Source: Methylobacterium sp. C25 (GTDB taxonomy: Bacteria > Pseudomonadota > Alphaproteobacteria > Rhizobiales > Beijerinckiaceae). From it: a DNA stretch of 64,000 nucleotides. Below, in pieces: positions 42,461 to 59,660 of the stretch. The stretch spans positions 1 to 64,000 of the forward strand of contig NZ_JAAUVI010000006.1 in NCBI RefSeq assembly GCF_021352225.1, in the 5' to 3' direction. Each line of letters begins with the position of its first letter. Within the stretch, counting starts at the first letter, position 1. The position numbers and the translations under genes were made by a program. The notes under the pieces were generated by a model that ran no database searches, was not told the origin of the DNA, and saw only the letters and a program-made list of their open reading frames with translations.

Positions 42461-43708
42461 ATGCGGTTGACTGAAGAAGAAGAGGCCATGCGGGCAGGGG
42501 CTTTTGGCCCCGTCCGTCGCTGGGCCATTGAGCATCAGATCGCCGTCGGCCAATTCTTCGACGCAGAGGATCTCGTGCCCGTCGGGCAAGCGCACATCAT
42601 GGCGGATACGGAAGCGACCGGCCCGTCCGGTGTCGCTTTCCTGGAGGAGATGGCAAAAAAGCCGGAGGCGGAGCGCCGTGTGCGCATTCCGACCATCACC
42701 GACCCGCGTGGAGTCGATTTCGACGCCTATCGGCGCCTGAAACAGACCGATGACATGGCGTCGCTTGAAGAGCGGCTGATCATGGCGTTCGAGGCACTCG
42801 GCGTGCTGATGACGAACACTTGTATCAACTACCAGACCATCCTGCCGCCCGTGCGAGGAGAACATCTCGCCTTCGGCGACACCGGTGTCGTGATCTACTC
42901 AAACAGCGTGCTGGGCGCCCGAACCAATTTCGAGGGCGGTCCCTCGGCCCTGTCAGCGGGACTGACGGGCCGAACGCCGCGTTATGCATACCATCTGGAG
43001 CAGAACAGGGTCGGCACGCGCCATTTCGCCCTCGAGCACCAGCCCGCATCGCTCAGCGATTGGGGTGCGCTCGGCGGTATCGTCGGCCGGGCAACCAACA
43101 GCTATTGGGAAGTTCCCGTTGTTTCGAACTGCGTGCGTGCGCCGAATTCCGACGAGCTCAAGCATTTCGGTGCAGCGCTGGCGAGCTTCGGATCGGTTGC
43201 GCTCTTCCATATGCCGGGCGTGACCCCGGAGGCGCCGACATTGTCAGACGCCTTTCATGGGGGGCCGATTCCGTCGGCCGAGGCGATCACGCAATCAGAT
43301 TTCGAGACCTTCTATGAGGGTTACGCTGCGCGAGGCGACAAAGTCGACGTCGTCGTTTTCTCGGCGCCGCAACTCTCGCTTCTCGAGCTTGAGCAGGTCG
43401 CCTCGCATCTCGACGGGAAGCGCGTTCACCGCGACACCACGCTCCTGGCAGTGACCTCGCCCGAAATCAAATTCGCGGCGGATCGGATGGGCCTCACGGC
43501 CCGTATCGAGGCCTCGGGTGCTTTGCTGCTCTCGGGTGTCTGCTTCTATCAGAGCTATGCGCGTGAGATGGCCGAGGCCAACGGTTGGAAGCGCCTCATG
43601 TCGAATTCAGCCAAGCTCGTGAACATCATCGGCGGGTACGGGTACAAGCCGACGCTCGCCAGCATGGAAGCCTGTGTTGCCAGTGCCGTAGCCGGGAGGG
43701 TCCTCTGA
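42461..43708 (+). CDS. acnX large: Aconitase X, large (catalytic) subunit
   Basis: This 415-residue protein matches the AcnX catalytic subunit, an Fe-S hydro-lyase related to aconitase. Family marks: the start MRLTEEEEAMRAG, LMTNTCINYQTILPPVRGEH with a cluster Cys, the substrate loop YSNSVLGARTNFEGGPSALS, GRTPRYAYHLEQNR, and SGALLLSGVCFYQSYA near the end. Known AcnX enzymes dehydrate cis-3-hydroxy-L-proline or mevalonate 5-phosphate. No proline reductase or mevalonate gene is nearby, so the substrate here is open. Stop and next start overlap (TGATG). Confidence 0.9.
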   Translation: MRLTEEEEAMRAGAFGPVRRWAIEHQIAVGQFFDAEDLVPVGQAHIMADTEATGPSGVAFLEEMAKKPEAERRVRIPTITDPRGVDFDAYRRLKQTDDMASLEERLIMAFEALGVLMTNTCINYQTILPPVRGEHLAFGDTGVVIYSNSVLGARTNFEGGPSALSAGLTGRTPRYAYHLEQNRVGTRHFALEHQPASLSDWGALGGIVGRATNSYWEVPVVSNCVRAPNSDELKHFGAALASFGSVALFHMPGVTPEAPTLSDAFHGGPIPSAEAITQSDFETFYEGYAARGDKVDVVVFSAPQLSLLELEQVASHLDGKRVHRDTTLLAVTSPEIKFAADRMGLTARIEASGALLLSGVCFYQSYAREMAEANGWKRLMSNSAKLVNIIGGYGYKPTLASMEACVASAVAGRVL

Positions 43709-44121
43709 TGCCAATCGTACTTCGCTGTCATCGCGGTCTCGGACCCGCTGTCGAGGGAACCGCCCTCGTCGCCGACGACAACTTTAGCGCCCGCTACGAC
43801 CTCGATCGCAAAACCGGCGTCTTTTCACGACCTGCCCACAAGCTGTTCGGCGAAAGTTACGTCGACAAGATACTCGTCCTGAAAACGGCGAAAGGCGGCG
43901 TCGCCTCGGCATGGATGCTGCGGGAGATGCAGCAGTTGAAGATCACGCCGCTTGCGCTCGTCTTCAATACCGTCAATCCGATCCTCGCTCAGGGCGCGGC
44001 TTTCGGGGATCTCACGATGGTCGACCGCTTTGTGGACGGCGATATCACGACCCTCATCAAGACCGGTGACAAGGTCAGGATCGAGCCGGACGAGGGTGTC
44101 CTCACAATCCTCGATGAGTGA
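43708..44121 (+). CDS. acnX small: Aconitase X, small (swivel) subunit
   Basis: A 137-residue swivel-domain protein: VLRCHRGLGPAVEGTALVAD, then SRPAHKLFGESYVDKILVLK, KGGVASAWMLREMQ and FVDGDITTLIKTGDKVRIEP. These match the small subunit of two-part AcnX enzymes, with the Ser in the GVAS segment near the active site. ATG 43708 shares one base with the stop of the large subunit gene, so translation is coupled. It belongs to the GntR-linked operon and would act only as a complex with the large subunit. Confidence 0.9.
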   Translation: MPIVLRCHRGLGPAVEGTALVADDNFSARYDLDRKTGVFSRPAHKLFGESYVDKILVLKTAKGGVASAWMLREMQQLKITPLALVFNTVNPILAQGAAFGDLTMVDRFVDGDITTLIKTGDKVRIEPDEGVLTILDE

Positions 44122-46929: not shown

Positions 46930-48177
46930 ATGCCCGCTAGAAACCACAGTCAGTGGACCGCAAAACCACCCCTGCAGAGCAGCGAGTGGATCGATAGTCG
47001 GATTTATACTGAAGAGGCCATCTTCGAGGAGGAGATGGAGAAGATCTTCAAAAAGACCTGGATCCCCGTCTGCCACGAATCTGAGCTCCCGAAGGCCTAC
47101 GACTTCAGAACGACCAGCATCGCGCGCGAGCCAGTCATCGTCTGCCGTGGCCCAGACAACGTGATCCGCGCGTTCCTGAACGTCTGCCCGCATCGCGGGA
47201 TGATCATCGAACGGCGCCCGTCGGGAAGCTTCTTCGAACCTCAGCCGTCGGGAAATCCCAAGCGGATGACCTGCATGTTCCATGCGTGGCAGTTCGATAT
47301 GAAAGGGAACTGCGTCTACGTCAGCCGCGAGAAGGAGGGATACCAGGATCGTCTTTGCAAAGAGGACGTAGGCCTTCGCCGCCTTCGTTGCGAAGTCAAA
47401 TTCGGTGGGTTCGTCTGGGTGAATCTCGACGACAATCCCCTCTCGCTCGAAGACTGGGCAGGCAAGCCGTTCGAATGCCTCCGCAAGACACTTGAGGCCG
47501 AGCCGCTCGAAGTCTTTCACTACCACAAGGCTATCGTGGAAACCAACTACAAGCTTTGGCACGATACGAATTGTGAATTCTATCACGATTTCATGCACTA
47601 CCATAACCGCGTCACCGGCTTCAACGACGCGTACTTTGCCCGGAAGAACGAGTCCTTCGAGAATGGCCACATCGTCGTCGGGACATTCGAGGTGAACTAT
47701 GATCAGTACGAGGGCTTCGAAAGTCGAGCCGGGCTCTCCTTCCCGCATCTGCCGCCCAATCAATGGTACATGATCGACCTGTTCCCCGGCATGAACTTCA
47801 ACCTGCGCGGTTCCGCCCTCCGGTGCGACACGGTCACCCCGCTCGGTCCGAACAAGCTCATGATCGAGTTCCGCGGATTGGGATTGAAGAGCGACAGTGC
47901 CGAAGACCGGCAGACCCGGATCAACCACCACAACTCCATCTGGGGACCATTCGGTCGAAACCTGCATGAAGACCTCATCGGCGTGCAGGGGCAGGGCACG
48001 ACGATGCGACCGGGTTCGGAGCCTCGCCGAATCCTTCATGGTCGCCAGGAAAACCAAACCATTCACGACGAGAACGGCATGCGCCACTACTATGACGAGT
48101 GGGGCCGCTGGATGAACCGGATGCCGAACGATCCGGAAAAAATCTTCGCAGAACGCGAACTGATCGCTGCGGAGTAG
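46930..48177 (+). CDS. msmA: Methanesulfonate monooxygenase, hydroxylase large subunit
   Basis: The 415-residue Rieske oxygenase alpha subunit would hydroxylate methanesulfonate, releasing formaldehyde and sulfite. The Rieske ligands are Cys86 and His88 (CPHRG) and Cys115 and His118 (CMFHAW), 26 residues apart; other Rieske oxygenases have about 16-18. This C-x-H-x26-C-x2-H spacing and the length are described for MsmA. The catalytic iron site lies in NCEFYHDFMHYH (Glu216, His219, His223/225). ATG 46930 follows GGGAGG; the frame upstream to 46873 is not conserved in style. A desulfonating dioxygenase for another sulfonate is the alternative. Confidence 0.85.
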   Translation: MPARNHSQWTAKPPLQSSEWIDSRIYTEEAIFEEEMEKIFKKTWIPVCHESELPKAYDFRTTSIAREPVIVCRGPDNVIRAFLNVCPHRGMIIERRPSGSFFEPQPSGNPKRMTCMFHAWQFDMKGNCVYVSREKEGYQDRLCKEDVGLRRLRCEVKFGGFVWVNLDDNPLSLEDWAGKPFECLRKTLEAEPLEVFHYHKAIVETNYKLWHDTNCEFYHDFMHYHNRVTGFNDAYFARKNESFENGHIVVGTFEVNYDQYEGFESRAGLSFPHLPPNQWYMIDLFPGMNFNLRGSALRCDTVTPLGPNKLMIEFRGLGLKSDSAEDRQTRINHHNSIWGPFGRNLHEDLIGVQGQGTTMRPGSEPRRILHGRQENQTIHDENGMRHYYDEWGRWMNRMPNDPEKIFAERELIAAE

Positions 48178-48268
48178 CGAGACGTTCTTGGGCGGCAGTT
48201 CAGTTCGATCCGCCGCCCAGACGACCCGAAGATAATCAACACACAAACAATTCTGGGAGGGTACCGCC

Positions 48269-48751
48269 ATGGACGCGGCAAGCGCCGTCCGCGAGGCAAT
48301 TGGCCGAGCAACCGTCTATCTCGACGACCAGCGCTGGAACGACTGGCTCGATCTCTGCGCCGACGATTTTCATTACGCAATCAAGTCCTTCAGCCCCGAA
48401 ATCAACTACGACATGACCTACTTGCAAGGCAGTCGCAGAGACATGGAGAGCTTGATTAAGCTCCTTCCCAAGCACAACACCGATCATTCCCCCCTCAGCC
48501 GTCACACCAATGTTTGCACCATCGATGTCGATGCTGATGGCAAGAATGCCTCTGCCGTCAGTTCCGTCGCCGTCTATCAGCACCTCCTCGACGGCACCAA
48601 CTCCCATGTCGACTCAGGGGAGAGCCGGCTGTTCCTTGTCGGAAAGTATATCGACAAGTTTCGGATCGAAGAGGGACGTCCGATTTTTGTTAGTCGCGAA
48701 GTGCGTCTTCAAAATAGGCGCCTCGACAAAGGATCGCACTGGCCGATCTAG
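48269..48751 (+). CDS. msmB: Methanesulfonate monooxygenase, hydroxylase small subunit
   Basis: A 160-residue protein of the ring-hydroxylating oxygenase beta-subunit fold (NTF2-like): IGRATVYLDDQRWNDWLDLC, DDFHYAIKSFSPEINYDMTY, and GKYIDKFRIEEGRPIFVSRE. These subunits stabilise the alpha-beta hexamer. It follows msmA by 91 bases with GGGAGGGTACC before the ATG. It is somewhat shorter than the MsmB described from other methylotrophs as I recall it (about 180 residues). Confidence 0.82.
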   Translation: MDAASAVREAIGRATVYLDDQRWNDWLDLCADDFHYAIKSFSPEINYDMTYLQGSRRDMESLIKLLPKHNTDHSPLSRHTNVCTIDVDADGKNASAVSSVAVYQHLLDGTNSHVDSGESRLFLVGKYIDKFRIEEGRPIFVSREVRLQNRRLDKGSHWPI

Positions 48752-48868
48752 CAGATACGATCATATGTTCTTGGGCAATTGGCCGGAACAAGTATTCCAG
48801 TTTTGCTCGCTATCTGCTTTGGAATGCTGAAGCAGGATTGGAACCACTTGCGTTCCCGCGGAGGAAAC

Positions 48869-49234
48869 ATGAGTTGGAAGTATCTGTGTGAAGTCTCCGA
48901 TGTGGAGACGAATTCCGTCAAGCTGATCGATGTCGATGGCGTCTCCGTGCTTGTTGCGAACTATGGCGGCGGCTTTAGGGCCATGCCGCCGATCTGCCCG
49001 CATATGGAGGAGCCGCTTGCCGAGTCGGGGGTCATCGCGAACTGCATCCTAACCTGCACCAAGCATCTTTGGGCCTGGGATCTCCGGAACCTGTCGATGA
49101 TCGGCGAGACGGAGAGAGATCTGAAGACCTACGAAGTCAAGCAGGAAGGAGACAAGGTTCTCGCCCTCATCGACGGAGAGTTGACCTACGACTTCGACGA
49201 GGAGGGCGACGATGACGACGATTTCTTCAAATAG
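48869..49234 (+). CDS. msmC: Rieske-type ferredoxin of the oxygenase
   Basis: A 121-residue Rieske ferredoxin that passes electrons from reductase to hydroxylase. The ligands are CPHMEEP and CTKHLW, with 17 residues between, the normal spacing. The start MSWKYLCEVSD is supported by GGAGG immediately upstream; the frame extends further but without homology. The tail is very acidic (DFDEEGDDDDDFFK). The end overlaps the reductase gene by 23 bases, implying coupled translation. Confidence 0.86.
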   Translation: MSWKYLCEVSDVETNSVKLIDVDGVSVLVANYGGGFRAMPPICPHMEEPLAESGVIANCILTCTKHLWAWDLRNLSMIGETERDLKTYEVKQEGDKVLALIDGELTYDFDEEGDDDDDFFK

Positions 49235-50357
49235 AACCGGAACGTCCTCATCGAACCTCCGCACGGACGAGGACGTGATTGATCAGGTGGTACGGCCCTC
49301 GAACGACACCTGCCTCGTTGAGGTGCAGTCCAAAGCGGGCCTGACCGCCTTCGCATGCAGCAAGAACGAAAGCCTGCTGTTGGCCGGCCTTCGGCAGGGT
49401 CTGACATTGCCCTACGAGTGCGCCTCTGGAACCTGCGGATCCTGTCGCGCTCGGCTGGATTCCGGGGACGTCGCGAATTGCTGGCCGGATGCTCCGGGGC
49501 ACATGAAGATCAAGCCCGCCAAGGGTGACATCCTGATGTGTCAAAGCCGCCCGCTCGGAGATTGCTCGCTTCGGGTGCCTGCCAACGTCGTGGAGGGCTT
49601 CGCCCGCTATGAACTTCCAACACACCACAACGGACGGATTGAGCGGCTCGACAGGCTGACTTCGGACGTCATCCACTTCGATGTCGTTCTCGCCGAGCCG
49701 ATGTCGTTCGACGCAGGCCAGTTCGTCCTGCTGCAGATCCCCGGCCTCGAAGGTATGCGCGCATACTCGATGGTGAATTACGAGCGCAGAACCCGTCGCC
49801 TATCCCTGGTGGTCAAACGCAAGCCAGGGGGCGGCTTCGGGGACTGGCTCTTCGAGCGCGCAGCTGCGGCAGACAAGATCGACGTATTCGGCCCCCTGGG
49901 CAGCGCAACGTTCCACCCGGATGAAGGTCATGATCTCCTGATGGTCGCCGGCGGCTCCGGTATCGCTGGAATGATGTCCATTCTCGAGAGAGCGACCAAC
50001 GAGGGTCATTTCGAGAGCCACAGGGGCCATGTCTTTTTCGGGGTACGAACGGTCGACGACTGCTTCTACCTCGATAAGTTCAGCCGGTACGTGGACAGGG
50101 CCCGCGGCAATCTCGAGGTGACGATCGCATTGTCGGACGCACCACCGCAGGGTCCGGTGGAGGGCGCCCATCCGGACATCCGTTTTGCAACCGGACTGGT
50201 GCACGAGGTCTGCGGCCGGGACATGCAGGGCCGATTCAGCGACAGAATGATGTCGTACCTCGCTGGGCCGCCGCCGATGGTCGATGGGGCTCTCCGGACT
50301 CTCATCGGCACCGGAAAGGTTACCCCCGATCGCATCCGCTACGACAAGTTCGGGTAA
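49212..50357 (+). CDS. msmD: Oxygenase reductase (plant-type 2Fe-2S, FAD, NADH)
   Basis: A 381-residue reductase supplying electrons from NADH. Domain order: a plant-type [2Fe-2S] domain (YECASGTCGSCRARLDSG, last Cys in MCQSRPLGDC), an FAD domain (RAYSMVNYERRTRRLS) and an NAD domain (LLMVAGGSGIAGMMSILERA, then MSYLAGPPPMVDGALRTL). GAGGAGGGCG lies just before ATG 49212 within the end of msmC, which fixes the start. It completes the four-part msmABCD set. Confidence 0.88.
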   Translation: MTTISSNRTGTSSSNLRTDEDVIDQVVRPSNDTCLVEVQSKAGLTAFACSKNESLLLAGLRQGLTLPYECASGTCGSCRARLDSGDVANCWPDAPGHMKIKPAKGDILMCQSRPLGDCSLRVPANVVEGFARYELPTHHNGRIERLDRLTSDVIHFDVVLAEPMSFDAGQFVLLQIPGLEGMRAYSMVNYERRTRRLSLVVKRKPGGGFGDWLFERAAAADKIDVFGPLGSATFHPDEGHDLLMVAGGSGIAGMMSILERATNEGHFESHRGHVFFGVRTVDDCFYLDKFSRYVDRARGNLEVTIALSDAPPQGPVEGAHPDIRFATGLVHEVCGRDMQGRFSDRMMSYLAGPPPMVDGALRTLIGTGKVTPDRIRYDKFG

Positions 50358-50363
50358 GCCGGC

Positions 50364-51131
50364 ATGCTTTCCGCAGTCGTCACTCCTCTCGCGGTCAATC
50401 TGGTCCTGGTCGGCACGCTGTCGGGCCTCATGATCGGCTGCGTCGGCATCGGTGGCGTCATCATCGTGCCCATTCTCTCGCTTGCCTTCGGCGTTCCCGT
50501 AGGAACGGCGGCGGCGGCAGCCATGGTGGGCTATATCGGTACCGGATTGGCCGGAACACTCGCGTTCGGCCGCAATGGATCGATCGACAACAAGCTGGCC
50601 GGCCTTCTCTGCGCTGGCGCAATACCCGGAGCTTTAGCCGGAGCATGGATCGTTCGGGCAGCAGACCCGTTCGTCGTGCAAGTCGTGATAGCGTGCCTTG
50701 CGGGCATTGCGGGCATTCATAACCTTCTCAGAAGTCGAGTGAATTTTCCCGCGAGCCCAGAGGTTGTGCTCGGGGCTGCTGCCTCGCTGCTGGTCGGATG
50801 CATGGTCGGCCTGATCTCGAGCGTGACTGGAACCGGAGGGCCGCTTGTCCTGGTGCCCCTTCTCATGTGGCTGGGCTTCCCCGTGCTCGGAGCGGTCGGC
50901 CTCGGCCAGGCAATCCAGATCCCGGTAGCGATCACAGCGACGGGAGGCGCGATGCTCTTCGGCTCTCTCGATTACACAATTGCGATCGCGCTCACTGCTG
51001 GCCTCGTCGTCGGTTGTCCGGCAGGTGCCTGGATCTCACACCACGTCGAGCAGAAGACCCTCAGGACCGTTGCCGCAACCGTCCTTCTAGGGACGAGTGG
51101 AATCATGGCCACGACCCTGGCGTTCCACTAA
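50364..51131 (+). CDS. TSUP (TauE/SafE) family membrane protein, probable sulfite or sulfonate exporter
   Basis: A 255-residue membrane protein made of two repeats: VGTLSGLMIGCVGIGGVIIV with PILSLAFGVPVGTAAAAAMV, and later VGLISSVTGTGGPLVLVPLL. The G-x-G-G-x-(I/L)-x-x-P pattern is the TauE/SafE signature; TauE and CuyZ export sulfite or sulfoacetate in sulfonate-degrading bacteria. It starts six bases after the msmD stop and is surely in the same operon. Export of the sulfite made by the oxygenase, for oxidation by the periplasmic SorAB encoded downstream, is the inference. Confidence 0.85.
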   Translation: MLSAVVTPLAVNLVLVGTLSGLMIGCVGIGGVIIVPILSLAFGVPVGTAAAAAMVGYIGTGLAGTLAFGRNGSIDNKLAGLLCAGAIPGALAGAWIVRAADPFVVQVVIACLAGIAGIHNLLRSRVNFPASPEVVLGAAASLLVGCMVGLISSVTGTGGPLVLVPLLMWLGFPVLGAVGLGQAIQIPVAITATGGAMLFGSLDYTIAIALTAGLVVGCPAGAWISHHVEQKTLRTVAATVLLGTSGIMATTLAFH

Positions 51132-51288: not shown

Positions 51289-52299
51289 ATGTTCCTGCGT
51301 CAGTTCAATTATCTACTTGCCGTTGTAGATGAAGAACACTTTGGTCGAGCGGCCGAAAAGTGCCATGTCACTCAACCTAGCCTCTCGGTCGGCATCAAAC
51401 AGCTTGAGATGGAGCTCGGAGCACCGATCTTTCTCCGCGGACGTGGGCAACGTTTCCATGGATTGACAACCGAAGGTCAGATCATCGCGAAATGGGCACG
51501 CAAAGTTGTAGGACATTGCGATGCAATGCTCGACGAGATCGCGGAGATGCGGGCCAACCTCTCGGGGCGGCTGAGAATGGGCGCCATGCCCTCGATGTCG
51601 CCGGTCCTTCCGGTGCTCCTGCAACTGGTACGACAAAAGCATCCTAACGTCGTGATGGATGTGCGCTTCATCGGAAACGACGCGATGAAGATCGGCTTAA
51701 ATAATTTTACTCTGGACGCAGCGCTGACATACCTCGATGAAGCTGAGTTTGGACGCCGGAATACCATCAAGATCTATACGGAAAAGATTTGCATCCTTGT
51801 CCCGGACACGGAACAATATGCCGACAGAACGACAATGAGCTGGGATGAGGCCTCGAAGCTTCCTTTGGCTATGCTGCGGCCGTCCATGCATGAACGACGG
51901 TTCGTGGATAGCGTATTTGCCAAGGTCGGCTTGGTCCCCGAGCCCAAATTGGAATCCGAGTCGATCCTGCATTTGATGTTCCAAGTTCAATTCGGTGGGC
52001 TCTGCACGATCATTCCCGAGCATTTCACGCGGATGCCGGGCCTCCACCCTGGAACCAAAGCTCTCGATCTCGTCGACCCGATCGTAAGTCAGGACGTCGG
52101 ATTGTACTGGTCCGAAGGAGAGCTTCTCACGCCGATCGCAAGTGCTCTGGTTGCTGCGGTGAAGAACCTCAACAAGCGCGGAGGCCTCGATCAGATTTTA
52201 AGCCGAACGTCCAATGTCGCCGCTCCCGACTGGGACGCCACGCTGCCACCGCTTGCCTGCCCGACTTTTGCAGTGCCGCAGAAGGCCGAACGAATCTGA
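51289..52299 (+). CDS. LysR-family transcriptional regulator
   Basis: A 336-residue LysR regulator. The N-terminal helix-turn-helix reads FNYLLAVVDEEHFGRAAEKC, HVTQPSLSVGIKQLEMELGA and FLRGRGQRFHGLT; the effector domain begins about residue 95 (GRLRMGAMPSMSPVLPVLLQ). It lies 157 bases after the TSUP gene in the same direction and probably controls the msm genes. A typical T-n11-A site was not identified with confidence. Confidence 0.9.
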   Translation: MFLRQFNYLLAVVDEEHFGRAAEKCHVTQPSLSVGIKQLEMELGAPIFLRGRGQRFHGLTTEGQIIAKWARKVVGHCDAMLDEIAEMRANLSGRLRMGAMPSMSPVLPVLLQLVRQKHPNVVMDVRFIGNDAMKIGLNNFTLDAALTYLDEAEFGRRNTIKIYTEKICILVPDTEQYADRTTMSWDEASKLPLAMLRPSMHERRFVDSVFAKVGLVPEPKLESESILHLMFQVQFGGLCTIIPEHFTRMPGLHPGTKALDLVDPIVSQDVGLYWSEGELLTPIASALVAAVKNLNKRGGLDQILSRTSNVAAPDWDATLPPLACPTFAVPQKAERI

Positions 52300-52435: not shown

Positions 52436-53176
52436 TCAATGACCGCGGACGAACGTATCGAGTTGGCCGGCTCCGGCACTCCCGAAGATGTGCGAGGCAG
52501 CAATGACGTCTTCGCGCGGTCGCTCCTGACTGTCGCGCCCACGAACGTAGAAGTATGGCTCGTCCAAGACCGATCCAACGGGCGCGAACCCCACGACGTG
52601 CCCCGAGCACAGCAACTCCATGCTGAGATCCTCGGGCCGAACGAGGACCTTTCGGTCGCCATTGCCGTCTGAGCCTTTGTCGGCGCTCTGAAGTGCGCGA
52701 GCCGCGCGCGACATCCATTCGGCGAGGAGCACCAACTCATCTGAATATTGCTCGGGACTGAACTCCTGGCCGTCGCCGGAGAGAAGCTGGGAAGCATCGT
52801 AGGGGAGCTTCTTCGTGAACCTTGAGCGATCAACTCCCCGATGAAGCAACTCGATCAGCAACCATGCCTCGGCATGCGCCGGCGAATGCTCTTCCGCCGA
52901 AAACGCGTGATTGGACGGCTTTCCATGCTCGAGAAACTGGAGAGTCATCTCCGCAACCCGAAGTTCGAGTTCCAGGCCGTCTATGAGACCGTGGGTCGTG
53001 ATGGCACGTCGTTCGTCGCACCACCGCAGCCGGATGGGCTCCTTCCTTCCGGCATCAGGCCCGTAGCTGTTTTCGACGCGGGCCACCCATTGCAGGAGGC
53101 TATGGACCTGATGCTGCGCCTCGTTGAATTTCTGGATGTCGGGTACGTCTAGGTGGGAAAGATTGTGCTCGGCCAT
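52436..53176 (-). CDS. Unrecognised protein linked to an amidohydrolase
   Basis: A 246-residue soluble protein with Trp-rich helices and no motif that I recognise: FNEAQHQVHSLLQWVARVEN, LELELRVAEMTLQFLEHGKP, HAEAWLLIELLHRGVD, YSDELVLLAEWMSRAARALQ and a C-terminal beta part (VLVRPEDLSMELLCSGHVVG). It is co-directional with the amidohydrolase 90 bases upstream and seems to be co-transcribed. Since it lies within the sulfonate region, a linked accessory function is possible. Function unknown. Confidence 0.6.
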   Translation of the reverse strand: MAEHNLSHLDVPDIQKFNEAQHQVHSLLQWVARVENSYGPDAGRKEPIRLRWCDERRAITTHGLIDGLELELRVAEMTLQFLEHGKPSNHAFSAEEHSPAHAEAWLLIELLHRGVDRSRFTKKLPYDASQLLSGDGQEFSPEQYSDELVLLAEWMSRAARALQSADKGSDGNGDRKVLVRPEDLSMELLCSGHVVGFAPVGSVLDEPYFYVRGRDSQERPREDVIAASHIFGSAGAGQLDTFVRGH

Positions 53177-53266: not shown

Positions 53267-54142
53267 TCATTTCTCGAAACTGACGCCGAAGATCCGGCCG
53301 GCATTCAGGTAGGTCGCAGCCGCGAAAGCGTCCGCCGAGAGCCCGAGATTGCGGAAGTCGTCGACCCCCTGGCGCATCGGCCGGAACGGATAGGAACTGC
53401 CGAACAGGAACTGATCCTTCATGAAGCCGTTCGCGGCTTCGACGTACAGCTTTCCGCCTGGGGCAAACGTGTACATATCCGGCGATACGAAGACGTTCTC
53501 GTTTCGGAACGCGACCGTAACAATATCGTGCACACGCGGATAGAAGCCGTGGGAACAGACAAGCTTAAGGCGAGGAAATGTCTTCGCGACGACGTCTACT
53601 GCGAATGGATCATTGAACGCCAGGTTGGGAGTCGTCGGGCCTGACATGATGAAGGCAGGCACCTCCAGGGTCTGACAGAGTTCGTAGAGCGGCATCAGAC
53701 GGTCGTCATTCGCCTTGAGGTGCTCCTTGTAGAAGCCGGCATCGAGATTCAGCCCTTTCAGGCCAAGCTGTCGGATGGCCCGTGTTGCCTCCTCGAGCGC
53801 CCCCTCCGGGCCGAGTTCGATCGGATCGACGGAAGCGACACCCAACAGTCGTTTCGGAGCGGCGGAAGCGACCTCAGCCAGGGCGTCGTTGGTCACCCGT
53901 ACGCCGGGCACACTCCGGGCCACCATCACGGCTGCAGAGATGCCCGCTTCGTCCATCTCGGCAATGAAACCAGCTGCATCGCGGGCCCTCGTGAAATGAT
54001 CGATGTCCCGGCTTCCAACGCGCTTGTTGAGCCACCGAACGACATCGTATTCGGGCGTGTTCGGTGTCGATCCGAAAAACTTGTGCAGGAAAGCGGGTCG
54101 GCTCCGCATGTCGACGATAGGCTGATTGCCTCCAACTGCCAT
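53267..54142 (-). CDS. Amidohydrolase-2-type protein with missing metal ligands
   Basis: A 291-residue TIM-barrel protein close to COG2159: AGFIAEMDEAGISAAVMVAR, LGLKGLNLDAGFYKEHL, KLVCSHGFYPRVHDIVTVA, DQFLFGSSYPFRPM. In active members the first strand has D-x-H-x-H and the last F-G-S-D-x-P. Here they read VDMRSRPAF and FGSSYPF, so two His and one Asp ligand are absent, while HGFYP is retained. It may be a decarboxylase-like enzyme without metal or a non-catalytic protein. Ribosome binding site GGGAGG precedes the ATG. Confidence 0.8.
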   Translation of the reverse strand: MAVGGNQPIVDMRSRPAFLHKFFGSTPNTPEYDVVRWLNKRVGSRDIDHFTRARDAAGFIAEMDEAGISAAVMVARSVPGVRVTNDALAEVASAAPKRLLGVASVDPIELGPEGALEEATRAIRQLGLKGLNLDAGFYKEHLKANDDRLMPLYELCQTLEVPAFIMSGPTTPNLAFNDPFAVDVVAKTFPRLKLVCSHGFYPRVHDIVTVAFRNENVFVSPDMYTFAPGGKLYVEAANGFMKDQFLFGSSYPFRPMRQGVDDFRNLGLSADAFAAATYLNAGRIFGVSFEK

Positions 54143-54716: not shown

Positions 54717-56048
54717 ATGTCGTCAGGTGTCGGCGTCATTGTAGAAGGGGCTGTTCCGATCAGCCCCACGACAACGGCAAGCGAAATTCCTTTCGAAGAG
54801 CCTCAAATCACAAAGAAGGCTCGCAATACGATCACGTTGGCGGCAACGCTCGGCTATCTGTTCGACGCCTACGCTATCAATATCTATGGCATGACCCTCG
54901 CGCTGATCGCATTGGATTTCGGCGTCAGCATTCAGACGATGGGCGCCATCGGCTCGGTCTTCATCGCGGGCTACATGCTCGGCAGCTGCGTCTTCGGAAT
55001 GCTCGGGGACAAAATCGGCCGTAGGAAGACACTTGGTTTTTCGATTTTCGCCTATGGCAGCGTCACGGCCCTGACGGGCTTCGCCACGGGCCCGCTTTCA
55101 TTTGCCATCGGACGGTTTCTGACCGGCGTCGGGGGCGGAGGAGAGCTGACCGTGGGCGTTCCCTATGTCGTCGAATCCTGGGACAGCAAGAACCGCGGTC
55201 TGGGCGCCGGGTGGATGTTCGCGGGCTACGCTCTCGGCGTCGTCTATGCGGCCGGAGTTTCTGCCTTGATCCTCGATTGGCTGGGATGGCGTGCGATGTA
55301 TTTCCTCGCAGTTCTGCCTGCAGTGGTGATCCTCTTCGTCCGTCTCCAACTCGAGGAGAGCCCCTCCTACGTCGCCACGATGGCTAAGCTGAAGGAATCC
55401 AGGCGCGAGCGGATTTCGCTCATGGCAGCCATGAAGCAGAACCCGCAGATTCGGCGAAATCTGATCTGGGGTTCCCTGATCTACGTTTCACTCGCCTGCA
55501 TCTACTACGCCGAGACGGTATTCGCGGTGCCATTCATGGTCACGACCCTCAAGATGACCACGACCACTGCTGTGGCAACCCTGGGCTTGTTCAACCTCTC
55601 GATGTTCGTCTTCTCGATCCTCTGCGGCATGGCGTCGGATCGGGTCGGCAGGAGGGTAGCGGGGTCTGTGACGCTACTGGCGCTGAGCGCCGCTCTCTGG
55701 GTCATGTTCTCGACAGCCTCCATCCCCCTGTTCGTTATCGCCGGCATCTTCGCATTCGGCGGTATCGGAGGCTCATGGGCGATCGGCATGGTTCATGTCG
55801 CAGAACTGTTCCCGACCGAGATCCGTGGATCTGGTTACGGCACTGCGGTCGCCATCGGTCGCTTCCCGTCGATCTTCGCTCCTCTGGGCATCGCGTGGCT
55901 CGCTAGCGTGACCGAGGGCGGCATGGGAGACGCGATGAAATATTCGTGCGCCGTCCTCCTTTGCGCGTTGCTCGCCTACGTCTTCGGACCCGAATCCCTG
56001 CGTCGAAACGGCAACGTGGCGCCGGACACCGTTGGCAAAGCTGGCTGA
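54717..56048 (+). CDS. MFS transporter, aromatic acid/metabolite:H+ symporter type, in the sulfonate region
   Basis: A 443-residue major facilitator of sugar-porter-like/AAHS layout: FDAYAINIYGMTLALIALDF at helix 1, FGMLGDKIGRRKTLGFSIFA as the D-R-x-G-R-R loop, RFLTGVGGGGELTVGVPYVV in helix 4 and the repeat SDRVGRRVAGSV. GGGAGG lies before the ATG. Since no ABC-type sulfonate importer is visible nearby, it is a candidate importer for the sulfonate, but family members carry many anions. Confidence 0.88.
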   Translation: MSSGVGVIVEGAVPISPTTTASEIPFEEPQITKKARNTITLAATLGYLFDAYAINIYGMTLALIALDFGVSIQTMGAIGSVFIAGYMLGSCVFGMLGDKIGRRKTLGFSIFAYGSVTALTGFATGPLSFAIGRFLTGVGGGGELTVGVPYVVESWDSKNRGLGAGWMFAGYALGVVYAAGVSALILDWLGWRAMYFLAVLPAVVILFVRLQLEESPSYVATMAKLKESRRERISLMAAMKQNPQIRRNLIWGSLIYVSLACIYYAETVFAVPFMVTTLKMTTTTAVATLGLFNLSMFVFSILCGMASDRVGRRVAGSVTLLALSAALWVMFSTASIPLFVIAGIFAFGGIGGSWAIGMVHVAELFPTEIRGSGYGTAVAIGRFPSIFAPLGIAWLASVTEGGMGDAMKYSCAVLLCALLAYVFGPESLRRNGNVAPDTVGKAG

Positions 56049-56991: not shown

Positions 56992-58197
56992 ATGGGCCTA
57001 GGGAGACGCGACCTGTTGAAGGGTGTCGGGGCGGCGACACTCGCAAGCGCGGGCGTCGGCCTTGGCCGATCCCGAGCAGCAGATGGCGTCTCCCTTCCAT
57101 TCGGGAACGGTGAACGGCCGCTGGTGGCCTATCCGGGGAAGCGTCCCCTTCTCCTGACCACCGCCCGGCCTCCACAGCTTGAGACACCCTTCTCGGTTTT
57201 TGACGAGAGCATCATCACGCCGAACGACGCATTCTTCGTCCGATACCATCTGGCTGGTGTTCCGACCGAGATCGATCCGGAGACCTATTGTCTCGGTATC
57301 AAGGGTCACGTCGATCAGCCTCTTTCCCTCTCGCTCAAAGACATCAAGGCGCTGCCTAGGGCAGAGATCGTCGCGGTAAGCCAGTGCTCCGGCAACTCGC
57401 GAGGCTTCTTCGAGCCACGGGTCGCGGGGGGCCAGTTGGCCAACGGCGCTATGGGATGCGCCCGCTGGACCGGCGTCGCCCTGAAGGACGTTCTCGACAA
57501 GGCCGGCGTCAAGGCGGGGGCTCTCGATGTCGTCTTCGAGGCTCTCGATGGGCCGGTGCTGTCGGAGACGCCCGATTTCGCGAAGGCACTTCGCATCGAT
57601 CATGCCCGCGACGGCGAAGTGATGCTCGCCTGGGCCATGAACGGCGAAGAGCTGCCGTGGTTGAACGGCTATCCGCTCCGACTCGTCGTCCCGGGCTACT
57701 TCGGCACCTATTGGGTCAAACACCTCGAAGCGATCACCGTCCTGGACAAGCCGTTCGACGGCTTCTGGATGAAGACCGCCTACCGCATCCCCGACAACGA
57801 CTGCGCCTGCACCGACCCCGGTCAGGCACCGAAATCGACCGTCCCGATCAATCGGTTCGGTGTTCGTTCCTTCGTGACGAACGTCCTCGACAACACCAAG
57901 GTGAAGGCTGGATCGGTCGACCTGCGCGGAATTGCCTTCAATGGCGGTTCTGGGATCAAGGCGGTCTCGGTCTCGACCGATGACGGGAAGAGCTGGCTCA
58001 CGGCGAAGCTTGGCCAGGATCTTGGCCGTTACGCCTTCCGCCCGTGGACGCTTCAAGTGGATCTGCCGGCGGGCCAGCACGTCATCCGCGTCAAGGCGAC
58101 CGGCAATGATGGCGGCGAGCAACCCATGGAGCCGCGCTGGAATCCGGCCGGCTACATGCGGAACGTCGTCGAAAGCACCCGCGTCACGGCTGCCTGA
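56992..58197 (+). CDS. sorA: Sulfite dehydrogenase, molybdopterin subunit
   Basis: A 401-residue sulfite oxidase-fold enzyme that oxidises sulfite to sulfate in the periplasm. A twin-arginine leader opens it (LGRRDLLKGVGAATLASAGV). The molybdenum-ligating Cys132 is in AVSQCSGNSRGFF, and TPNDAFFVRYHLAG, GYPLRLVVPGYFGTYWVKHL and WMKTAYRIPDND are typical. The C-terminal dimerisation domain carries VSVSTDDGKSWLTAKL. GAGGGAG precedes ATG 56992. The cytochrome gene follows 11 bases after the stop, as in SorAB. It would detoxify and harvest electrons from the sulfite released by the Msm oxygenase. Confidence 0.93.
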   Translation: MGLGRRDLLKGVGAATLASAGVGLGRSRAADGVSLPFGNGERPLVAYPGKRPLLLTTARPPQLETPFSVFDESIITPNDAFFVRYHLAGVPTEIDPETYCLGIKGHVDQPLSLSLKDIKALPRAEIVAVSQCSGNSRGFFEPRVAGGQLANGAMGCARWTGVALKDVLDKAGVKAGALDVVFEALDGPVLSETPDFAKALRIDHARDGEVMLAWAMNGEELPWLNGYPLRLVVPGYFGTYWVKHLEAITVLDKPFDGFWMKTAYRIPDNDCACTDPGQAPKSTVPINRFGVRSFVTNVLDNTKVKAGSVDLRGIAFNGGSGIKAVSVSTDDGKSWLTAKLGQDLGRYAFRPWTLQVDLPAGQHVIRVKATGNDGGEQPMEPRWNPAGYMRNVVESTRVTAA

Positions 58198-58208: not shown

Positions 58209-58532
58209 ATGTCCAAACGGTCAAATCTTGCGGCCGCCGCTCTGTTGGTGGCGTCAATCGGGATCGCCAAGGCCAGCCCACGGACCATCGAAATTCCCGA
58301 ACCGACGGCCGAATTCAAAGCGCCGAAGGATGATGCCCATAGGGCTGGCTTTGATGCAGCAACCGGAAACTGCATGGTTTGCCATTCGGTCGACTACATC
58401 GCGACCCAGCCGCCCAAGAAGGGCGACAAGTTCTGGGAGACCGAAGTTCACAAGATGATCAAGGTCTACAAGGCACAGATCGGCGAGAGCGACGCGAAGA
58501 TCATCGCCGATTATCTCGCCGTGACCTACTGA
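58209..58532 (+). CDS. sorB: Sulfite dehydrogenase cytochrome c subunit
   Basis: A 107-residue monohaem cytochrome c. A signal peptide (RSNLAAAALLVASIGIAKAS) is followed by the haem motif Cys55-x2-Cys58-His59 (NCMVCHSVDY) and a Met in EVHKMIKVYK as the probable sixth ligand. It accepts electrons from SorA and hands them to the respiratory chain. AAGGAGAGCG lies before the ATG. Confidence 0.92.
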   Translation: MSKRSNLAAAALLVASIGIAKASPRTIEIPEPTAEFKAPKDDAHRAGFDAATGNCMVCHSVDYIATQPPKKGDKFWETEVHKMIKVYKAQIGESDAKIIADYLAVTY

Positions 58533-58574: not shown

Positions 58575-59660
58575 GTGACGATCAGCCACTCTACTGCCTC
58601 GCCCATCCACGCGCGTGTCTTCGGAGCGCTCGACCTCGGTCGGCCATCGGTCCTGCCGGGCATCCTGCTGTGCCTAGCGATCACAGGCATGTCGATGGTG
58701 GTGCAGGCGTTGGAAGAGCACAGCACCGGGCATCCCTATGTCGAGGCTCTGGTCATCGCGATCCTGATCGGGATCGCGATCCGATCGTTCTGGACGCCGG
58801 GAGAGCGCTACAAGGCCGGTATCGCCTTCAGCGCGAAGCAGGTTCTCGAAGTGGCCGTTGCACTTCTCGGTGCTTCCATCAGCCTAGGGACGATCGTCGC
58901 TTCGGGACCGGCCCTGCTGAGTGGGATCGTCGGCACGGTCGTCCTCGCCATCACGGCGAGCTTCGGTATCTGTCGAGCGCTCGGACTGCCGCCACGGATG
59001 GCAATCCTAGTCGCCTGCGGGAACTCGATCTGCGGAAATTCCGCAATCGCCGCCGTCGCTCCGGTGATCGGCGCCGACAGCAAGGACGTCGCTGCGTCCA
59101 TCGCCTTCACGGCCGTGCTCGGCGTCATCGTCGTCCTTGGACTCCCGCTCTTCATCCCGCTCCTGGGCCTGTCCGAGCATCAATACGGAGTTCTCGCCGG
59201 ACTGACCGTCTACGCCGTCCCACAAGTTCTCGCTGCGACGGTCCCCGTCGGCGTTCTCAGCATGCAGGTCGGAACTTTGGTGAAACTCGTCCGGGTCCTG
59301 ATGCTGGGCCCGGTGGTCGTCGCCTTTTCTCTCATCGGCCCAAGGCTTCCGGTTGAGGGAGCCACGACGAAAGCCCGATCCGGGCGTCTTGGATTCACCA
59401 AGATGGTGCCCTGGTTCATCATCGCGTTTCTCGTCCTGGCGGCGAGCCGCTCGATCGGACTGATCCCGGACGGAGCGTCAAAACCCGTGACGACCTTCGC
59501 CGGCTTTCTGACGATCATCTCGATGGCTGGGTTGGGACTGGGCGTGGATGTCAGAGTCCTTGCAAAGGTCGGCGGCCGCGTGACCTTGGCCGTGACGGGC
59601 TCCCTGCTGGTCCTGCTAGGGATCAGCCTCATCCTGATCCGGGCGCTTGGGATCGCCTAG
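58575..59660 (+). CDS. YeiH-family putative sulfate exporter
   Basis: A 361-residue membrane protein with about ten hydrophobic segments. Family marks: VEALVIAILIGIAIRSFWTP, VAVALLGASISLGTIVASGP, ACGNSICGNSAIAAVAPVIG and the C-terminal TFAGFLTIISMAGLGLGVDV. YeiH proteins are annotated as putative sulfate exporters; in sulfonate degraders they accompany desulfonation genes. GTG 58575 starts 42 bases after sorB, so it is in the sor operon. Export of sulfate or sulfite is inferred. Confidence 0.87.
   Translation: MTISHSTASPIHARVFGALDLGRPSVLPGILLCLAITGMSMVVQALEEHSTGHPYVEALVIAILIGIAIRSFWTPGERYKAGIAFSAKQVLEVAVALLGASISLGTIVASGPALLSGIVGTVVLAITASFGICRALGLPPRMAILVACGNSICGNSAIAAVAPVIGADSKDVAASIAFTAVLGVIVVLGLPLFIPLLGLSEHQYGVLAGLTVYAVPQVLAATVPVGVLSMQVGTLVKLVRVLMLGPVVVAFSLIGPRLPVEGATTKARSGRLGFTKMVPWFIIAFLVLAASRSIGLIPDGASKPVTTFAGFLTIISMAGLGLGVDVRVLAKVGGRVTLAVTGSLLVLLGISLILIRALGIA

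Follow-up and report, generated by a model that had tools for sequence, protein, structure and literature searches.

The subject of this analysis is a four-gene oxygenase cluster at 46930-50357 of the window, a stretch of 64,000 nucleotides from Methylobacterium sp. C25 (contig NZ_JAAUVI010000006.1, positions 1 to 64,000). It is very likely that this cluster encodes a methanesulfonate monooxygenase, MsmABCD, and the assignment of the C25 enzyme to this known enzyme kind, as a new member, is well supported. The cluster is a variant of the msm cluster with an unusual set of helper genes. From the sequence, we infer that methanesulfonate would serve C25 as a carbon source for growth.

Core msm genes and identity of MsmA

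All four genes lie on the plus strand in the order A-B-C-D, and all four products gave Pfam matches above cut-off. The hydroxylase alpha subunit is encoded by msmA (46930..48177; 415 residues, CxH-X26-CxxH) and the beta subunit by msmB (48269..48751; 160 residues; PF00866, 31.0 bits, cut-off 27). They are followed by msmC (48869..49234), encoding a Rieske ferredoxin of 121 residues (PF00355) with a Rieske spacer of 17, and by msmD (49212..50357), encoding an FAD/2Fe-2S reductase of up to 381 residues (PF00111, PF00175, PF00970). The start of msmD is uncertain: with the start placed at 49212, the gene shares 23 bases with msmC, and the Filomicrobium insigne reductase has nothing corresponding to roughly the first 30 residues of the product. 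The initial annotation, made from the letters alone, had described an alpha subunit of 415 residues and the order large subunit, small subunit, ferredoxin, reductase, and both were confirmed by translation and by Pfam.

Translation of 46930-48177 also bore out the Rieske motif that had been read there. MsmA contains a single CxH (C86-P-H88) and a single CxxH (C115-M-F-H118), with 26 residues between H88 and C115 (115-88-1). Three further Rieske proteins of the C25 genome have spacers of 16, 16 and 15; the MsmA spacer therefore stands out within the genome, since the other four Rieske proteins, MsmC included, have 15-17. Glu216, which is invariant in a 31-row alignment, is the putative bridging residue, and H219, H223 and D348 are candidate iron ligands; these roles were assigned by motif rather than from a structure. 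In CntA, another Rieske oxygenase, a bridging glutamate is established according to a passage of PMC7948474.

The relatives of MsmA were examined in 80 named homologous loci, the best 80 of 162 confirmed candidates from GTDB genomes; second MsmA matches below 200 bits within one locus were excluded from the counts, as were tblastn matches covering less than 35% of the query from the neighbourhood counts. Identity to C25 MsmA in these loci ranged from 96% (Methylobacterium sp. NEAU K) down to 53%, and an msmB homologue was present in 79 of them. The best plasmid match found by tblastn was that of M. nodulans ORS 2060 pMNOD01 (NC_011892; 88%), a copy included in the MsmA list of a figure legend in PMC5068391. 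MsmA was 83% identical to the protein of F. insigne, whose locus has the layout msmHGFE-msmABCD, as given in a passage of PMC4433239. The same source states an amino-acid identity range of 84-99% for MsmA of proven methanesulfonate degraders; with regard to this range, C25 MsmA was compared only with the M. nodulans (88%) and F. insigne (83%) proteins, neither of which is a proven-strain sequence.

Phylogenetic analysis was consistent with these matches. In a tree of 87 rows, C25 MsmA was placed inside a 49-row clade with a Shimodaira-Hasegawa-like approximate likelihood ratio test (SH-aLRT) value of 100, in which every row has spacer 26 and which includes Filomicrobium, Hyphomicrobium, Methylocella and a SAR116 protein. 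When the spacer was cut from all rows, the C25 protein stood in a starred set of 30 rows, all with spacer 26. Before both trees were built, seven rows were removed (five duplicates, one short contig and one fragment). As clustering with aromatic dioxygenases would have spoken against MsmA, a small tree of 37 rows was built with six plasmid-borne dioxygenase alpha subunits (one annotated as anthranilate dioxygenase, five as generic 'aromatic' or Rieske). The six formed their own branch (SH-aLRT 99), and the C25 protein was found within a 15-row MsmA branch (100), with long branches flagged for the aromatic rows. Considering the M. nodulans match, the 49-row clade and the sub-threshold scores of aromatic models given below, the MsmA identity proposed initially is supported.

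Several further MsmA-like proteins were observed. Four metagenome-assembled genomes (L046/L060, L047/L057, L048/L063 and L059/L066) carry two msmA genes each, of different lineages, with 76-78% and 65-69% identity to that of C25; in the fetched stretch of L060, msmB gave a match, and matches to msmC, msmD and msmE-H were lacking. Many viral contigs encode MsmA-like proteins (at least 552 confirmed), and phage HMO-2011 was examined alongside them. The best 80 of these at least 552 (L177-L256) are 53-58% identical and 308-379 residues long. C86, H88 or C115 was kept in none of the 80, and no CxH..CxxH motif was found in any, a lack already mentioned in a passage of PMC4433239; N206, N214, E216, H219, H223, N226, R227 and D348 were kept in all 80. 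Because the iron site is fully kept, it is suggested that the viral protein may be a working Rieske-less enzyme.

Spacer lengths of 26 and 17 among MsmA homologues

Spacer 26 was found in 54 of the best 80 of 162 loci and spacer 17 in 25, the remaining one being a fragment without the motif. The recurrence of spacer 26 in 54 of 80 homologous loci indicates that it is not due to chance. A passage of PMC4433239 describes it as a likely signature of methanesulfonate monooxygenase and attributes the spacer-17 'MsmA' entries of Methylibium and Methyloversatilis to automatic annotation.

The spacer-17 homologues are about 55% identical to C25 MsmA and belong to mostly betaproteobacterial clusters (Methylibium, Methyloversatilis and others) that share MsmB, MsmC and MsmD with C25 and have msmEFGH-like transporters. 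They differ from C25 in their spacer and in the order A-B-D-C, usually then E-F-G-H; AmdH2, a helper protein described below, occurs in 7 of the 25 at about 50% identity. In 19 of the spacer-17 loci, 8 kb or more of sequence is available on the downstream side of msmA. Each of these 19 has three or more of msmE/F/G/H in the stretch retrieved; these genes lie upstream of msmA in L097 and downstream in the other 18. The MsmG-type proteins of these loci are 66-73% identical to F. insigne MsmG. Such synteny argues strongly, without being proof, that enzymes lacking the long spacer may act on methanesulfonate (or a close alkanesulfonate).

The initial annotation had taken the 26-residue spacer as a signature of msm. 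The spacer is not required, since spacer-17 homologues adjoin msmEFGH-like genes in 19 of 19 loci with sufficient flank; spacer 26 as a necessary signature was therefore rejected, and as a diagnostic feature it is weaker than had been assumed. Nor is spacer 26 confined to the 49-row clade, being present also in L007, L079, L087, L089, L069, L072, L065, L067 and L068; its single origin was not rejected (approximately unbiased test, p = 0.77). Atmospheric oxidation of dimethylsulfide yields methanesulfonate as a major product, and spacer-26 msmA has been used as an environmental marker, as stated in a part of PMC4433239. The present counts suggest that this marker misses the mostly betaproteobacterial spacer-17 clusters having the other msm genes.

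Neighbouring genes, proposed pathway and rival explanations

Downstream of msmD, a TauE/SafE-family permease gene (50364..51131, plus strand; PF01925, 121 bits) encodes a probable sulfite exporter. It is followed by genes for a LysR-type regulator (51289..52299, plus; PF03466, PF00126), the conserved protein hyp246 (52436..53176, minus; no Pfam or NCBIfam match), AmdH2 of the PF04909 type (53267..54142, minus; Pfam 92.5 bits, cut-off 26.4) and an MFS transporter (54717..56048, plus; PF07690), which may import methanesulfonate. Further downstream on the plus strand are sorA (56992..58197), encoding the catalytic subunit of sulfite dehydrogenase (NF052245, 679 bits, cut-off 600, scanned from 56986), sorB (58209..58532) and a gene for a putative sulfate exporter of the YeiH type (58689..59660; PF03601, 213.5 bits). 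The sorB product, which gave no match in a Pfam scan, is probably a cytochrome c subunit, being 63% identical to a cytochrome c-annotated stretch beside the M. nodulans SorA homologue. The M. nodulans homologue of the PF03601 exporter (31%) is annotated as 'putative sulfate exporter' and the M. bullatum one (76%) as 'YeiH family'. Thus, the downstream sulfite genes expected initially were found in the form of TauE/SafE, SorA and the PF03601 exporter.

In M. oxalidis, NEAU K and Microvirga, the order msmABCD-TauE-LysR-hyp246-AmdH2-MFS is the same as in C25. A LysR match was present in 22 of the 80 msm-like loci and a hyp246 match in 13; all 13 have spacer 26 and also contain a LysR gene. The structure model of hyp246 had a mean predicted local distance difference test (pLDDT) score of 83, and no PDB fold matched it at E<=0.001. 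The M. nodulans pMNOD01 cluster has msmABCD, TauE, SorAB, AmdH2, hyp246 and MFS genes, as C25 does; however, MFS, AmdH2 and hyp246 are on the opposite side of msmA, formate dehydrogenase genes adjoin them and insertion sequence elements are nearby. According to passages of PMC4433239 and PMC4424283, the msmEFGH-msmABCD clusters of Filomicrobium and Methylosulfonomonas share with C25 the MsmABCD order, spacer 26 and a sulfite exporter and sulfite dehydrogenase in the neighbourhood. These clusters have msmEFGH (divergent in F. insigne), whereas C25 lacks these genes and adds MFS, AmdH2, hyp246 and YeiH; SorAB of C25 stands in the place of SoxCD in the Filomicrobium Y segment.

The following pathway may be proposed. 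With the ABC transporter MsmEFGH missing, it is probably the MFS protein that would take up methanesulfonate. Electrons from NADH would pass through the reductase MsmD and the ferredoxin MsmC to the Rieske cluster of MsmA and from there across the subunit interface, probably via Glu216, to the mononuclear iron, which would hydroxylate CH3SO3-, the presumed substrate. The hydroxylated product would fall apart into formaldehyde and sulfite. Formaldehyde would enter the Fae-dependent C1 pathway of the cell; it has an outlet because fae was found in the C25 genome (260 bits, cut-off 118). Sulfite would be oxidised by SorAB, and/or sulfur anions would be exported via TauE and YeiH.

Some observations weigh against the assignment of the cluster to methanesulfonate use. 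The proven MsmA proteins of Methylosulfonomonas M2 and Marinosulfonomonas TR3 did not turn up among the best 80 loci, and because of this the MsmA anchor is indirect. The genes msmEFGH were not found at the C25 locus, and no close MsmE was found in the C25 genome, the best MsmE-like proteins outside the locus showing 32% and 28% identity. The AlphaFold model of MsmA, based on the 31-row alignment, had a mean pLDDT of 81, but the block means for residues 81-110, which cover the spacer, were 51-64, and therefore no statement on the structural role of the spacer is possible. In addition, only 4 of the 111 genomes of the genus carry msmA (E<=1e-60); the gene is hence accessory, and it might be unused in C25. 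With regard to the transporter, both flanks reach 5 kb or more in 39 spacer-26 loci, of which 25 carry one or more of msmE-H and 14 have none at the thresholds used; in these 14, an MFS match (>=30% identity) was found in eight and none in six. The natural reading is that in C25 the MFS protein would replace MsmEFGH.

The absence of msmEFGH would also suit two rival explanations. One is that a genuine methanesulfonate monooxygenase is used here for sulfur supply or detoxification rather than for carbon. Sulfonate-sulfur use does exist in C25, as the genome encodes a full SsuD (627 bits). This explanation is nevertheless unlikely, because SorA and two probable sulfur-anion exporters fit the disposal of excess sulfite, which is expected for carbon use over sulfur scavenging, and because fae is present. 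It is still less probable that the enzyme belongs to the msm family but is tuned to another short alkanesulfonate, such as ethanesulfonate, with methanesulfonate as a secondary substrate. Distant relatives (L007, 51%; the second copy in L079, 43%; L008, 39%) adjoin dmpG and a gene for acylating acetaldehyde dehydrogenase, which makes it probable that C2 or longer substrates are handled within the wider family. However, these three fall outside the 49-row clade, no match to acetaldehyde dehydrogenase or dmpG was found in the close loci L006, L019, L020 and L021, and C25 MsmA is 83-88% identical to clade members with msmEFGH in the locus (L022-L026 and L038).

It might also be supposed that the protein is an aromatic ring-hydroxylating or aryl-sulfonate dioxygenase whose spacer is coincidental, since its domains are the generic Rieske and Ring_hydroxyl_A/B ones, the NCBIfam models that score best are those for phenylpropionate, anthranilate and benzoate dioxygenases, and the MFS protein shows a resemblance to the aromatic acid symport family (TIGR00895) that, at 171 bits, stays below the cut-off of 418. 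Yet the best score against the aromatic dioxygenase equivalogs (NCBIfam, HcaE, AntA and BenA type) was 110.8 bits against a cut-off of 830, every such score being far below its cut-off, and the positions in all three trees speak against a dioxygenase. Moreover, a ring-cleavage Pfam domain was found in none of the 16 open reading frames scanned between 40 and 60 kb of the window (the frames at 43708, 56139 and 59761 lie outside the scan). A dioxygenase of this type is thus highly improbable, and methanesulfonate monooxygenase is the preferred assignment.

As to the distant relatives themselves, L007 (P. graminis, with a TSUP transporter gene), L008 (Hydrogenophaga, with a sulfate exporter gene) and the second copy in L079 are candidate monooxygenases for ethanesulfonate or longer substrates that would feed acetyl-CoA.

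AmdH2 and further observations

The motif D-x-R-x-R is present in AmdH2 in all 48 rows aligned (47 different). In metal-dependent PF04909 relatives, D-x-H-x-H occupies that place, and in ACMSD-type enzymes the metal is bound by an HxH pair on strand 1, by another His further along the chain and by a C-terminal Asp. M166 of AmdH2 was aligned with a His of LigW2 (4qs5) and of 3nur, and S250 with an Asp of the resorcylate decarboxylase 3s4t. Judged by alignment, AmdH2 appears to lack the usual PF04909 metal ligands.

AmdH2 was found within the fetched flanks, many of them short, of 16 of the 80 msm-like loci, with both spacer types, and in four of eight msmA genomes of the order sample; on these counts, an obligatory role of AmdH2 in msm was rejected. 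Eleven relatives with 45-53% identity, found by a search with AmdH2 itself, were also examined. Ten of them (L115, L116, L117, L122, L123, L125-L128 and L170, of which L125 and L126 are one species) lie next to genes for an SsuD-type alkanesulfonate monooxygenase, in many cases together with sfnG, msuE or sfnB, as named by NCBIfam and record annotation; the eleventh (L121) is in an msm cluster. Such SsuD/SfnG/MsuE desulfonation loci have AmdH2 in common with C25, but their oxygenase chemistry is unrelated, being FMNH2-dependent. The surroundings of four distant PF04909 controls (29-33%) contained no sulfonate genes. Two of these controls (L172 and L175) share D-F-R-x-R, which weakened the idea of R-x-R as a sulfonate-specific anion clamp.

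In the genus, AmdH2 is present in 26 of 111 genomes (E<=1e-80), including all four with msmA. Neighbours were examined for 20 of 28 further AmdH2 places; the counts leave out the other eight, H65, the lower plasmid hits except H68, H70, H71 and H76, and the 34-40% matches in G174, G207 and G211. Three of the 20 are msm clusters (two being loci L019 and L020 again), one is beside SsuD, one is beside weak NtaA/SfnB matches, and 15 are beside a second kind of MFS gene. Thirteen of these 15 are in genomes without msmA, and three also have a match to SorB, or to SorAB, with YeiH. An M. bullatum plasmid of 49.7 kb carries the run MFS-AmdH2-SorAB-YeiH, and the 14.6 kb of it that were viewed contain no gene annotated as an oxygenase. 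In the AmdH2 tree, the grouping largely follows context, with 6 changes against a possible minimum of 5.

These distributions raise the tentative possibility that AmdH2 is a metal-independent enzyme that splits hydroxymethanesulfonate, the product common to MsmABCD and SsuD/MsuD, into formaldehyde and sulfite, and that the MFS-AmdH2 pair without an oxygenase forms a hydroxymethanesulfonate-consuming route. Hydroxymethanesulfonate is proposed as the substrate because it is the one compound considered that would fit all three settings (msm, SsuD and the MFS pair); it is the expected product of methanesulfonate hydroxylation by either Rieske or flavin chemistry. Literature abstracts report its occurrence in atmospheric particles. 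Its dissociation into formaldehyde and sulfite has a constant of about 2 x 10^-4 M (passages including PMC6459274), and the reverse reaction delivers formaldehyde slowly (a passage of PMC6459274); an enzyme would help to drain the compound. On the other hand, most of the fetched msm-like loci show no AmdH2, R-x-R is not confined to the sulfonate-linked group, and dissociation is fast at high pH, about 43 s-1 in the passages available. According to a passage of PMC8234197, the MsuD paper, a 1-hydroxyalkanesulfonate could go to sulfite and aldehyde non-enzymatically, as earlier work had proposed. A literature search with thin coverage of subscription journals yielded no title on hydroxymethanesulfonate-splitting enzymes and no link of AmdH2 to msm or ssuD, and the word 'amidohydrolase' does not occur in the three msm papers checked for it.

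Under this hypothesis, AmdH2 would be a helper common to two unrelated C-S cleavage chemistries, and the spontaneity of the last step of sulfonate cleavage would become testable. The MFS-AmdH2 pair, sometimes with SorAB/YeiH, would then consume hydroxymethanesulfonate, a known constituent of atmospheric particles.

In the AmdH2 copy of NEAU K (G1094 C35 / L019; 92% identity), the matched stretch contains a single in-frame TAG, and the ATG-started frame of this copy begins at the residue aligned with M12 of C25 AmdH2. Upstream of the msm cluster, 42461-44121 holds a gene for the large subunit of aconitase X (PF04412) and, following it, a frame of 137 residues that may encode the small subunit; an MFS gene adjoins them.

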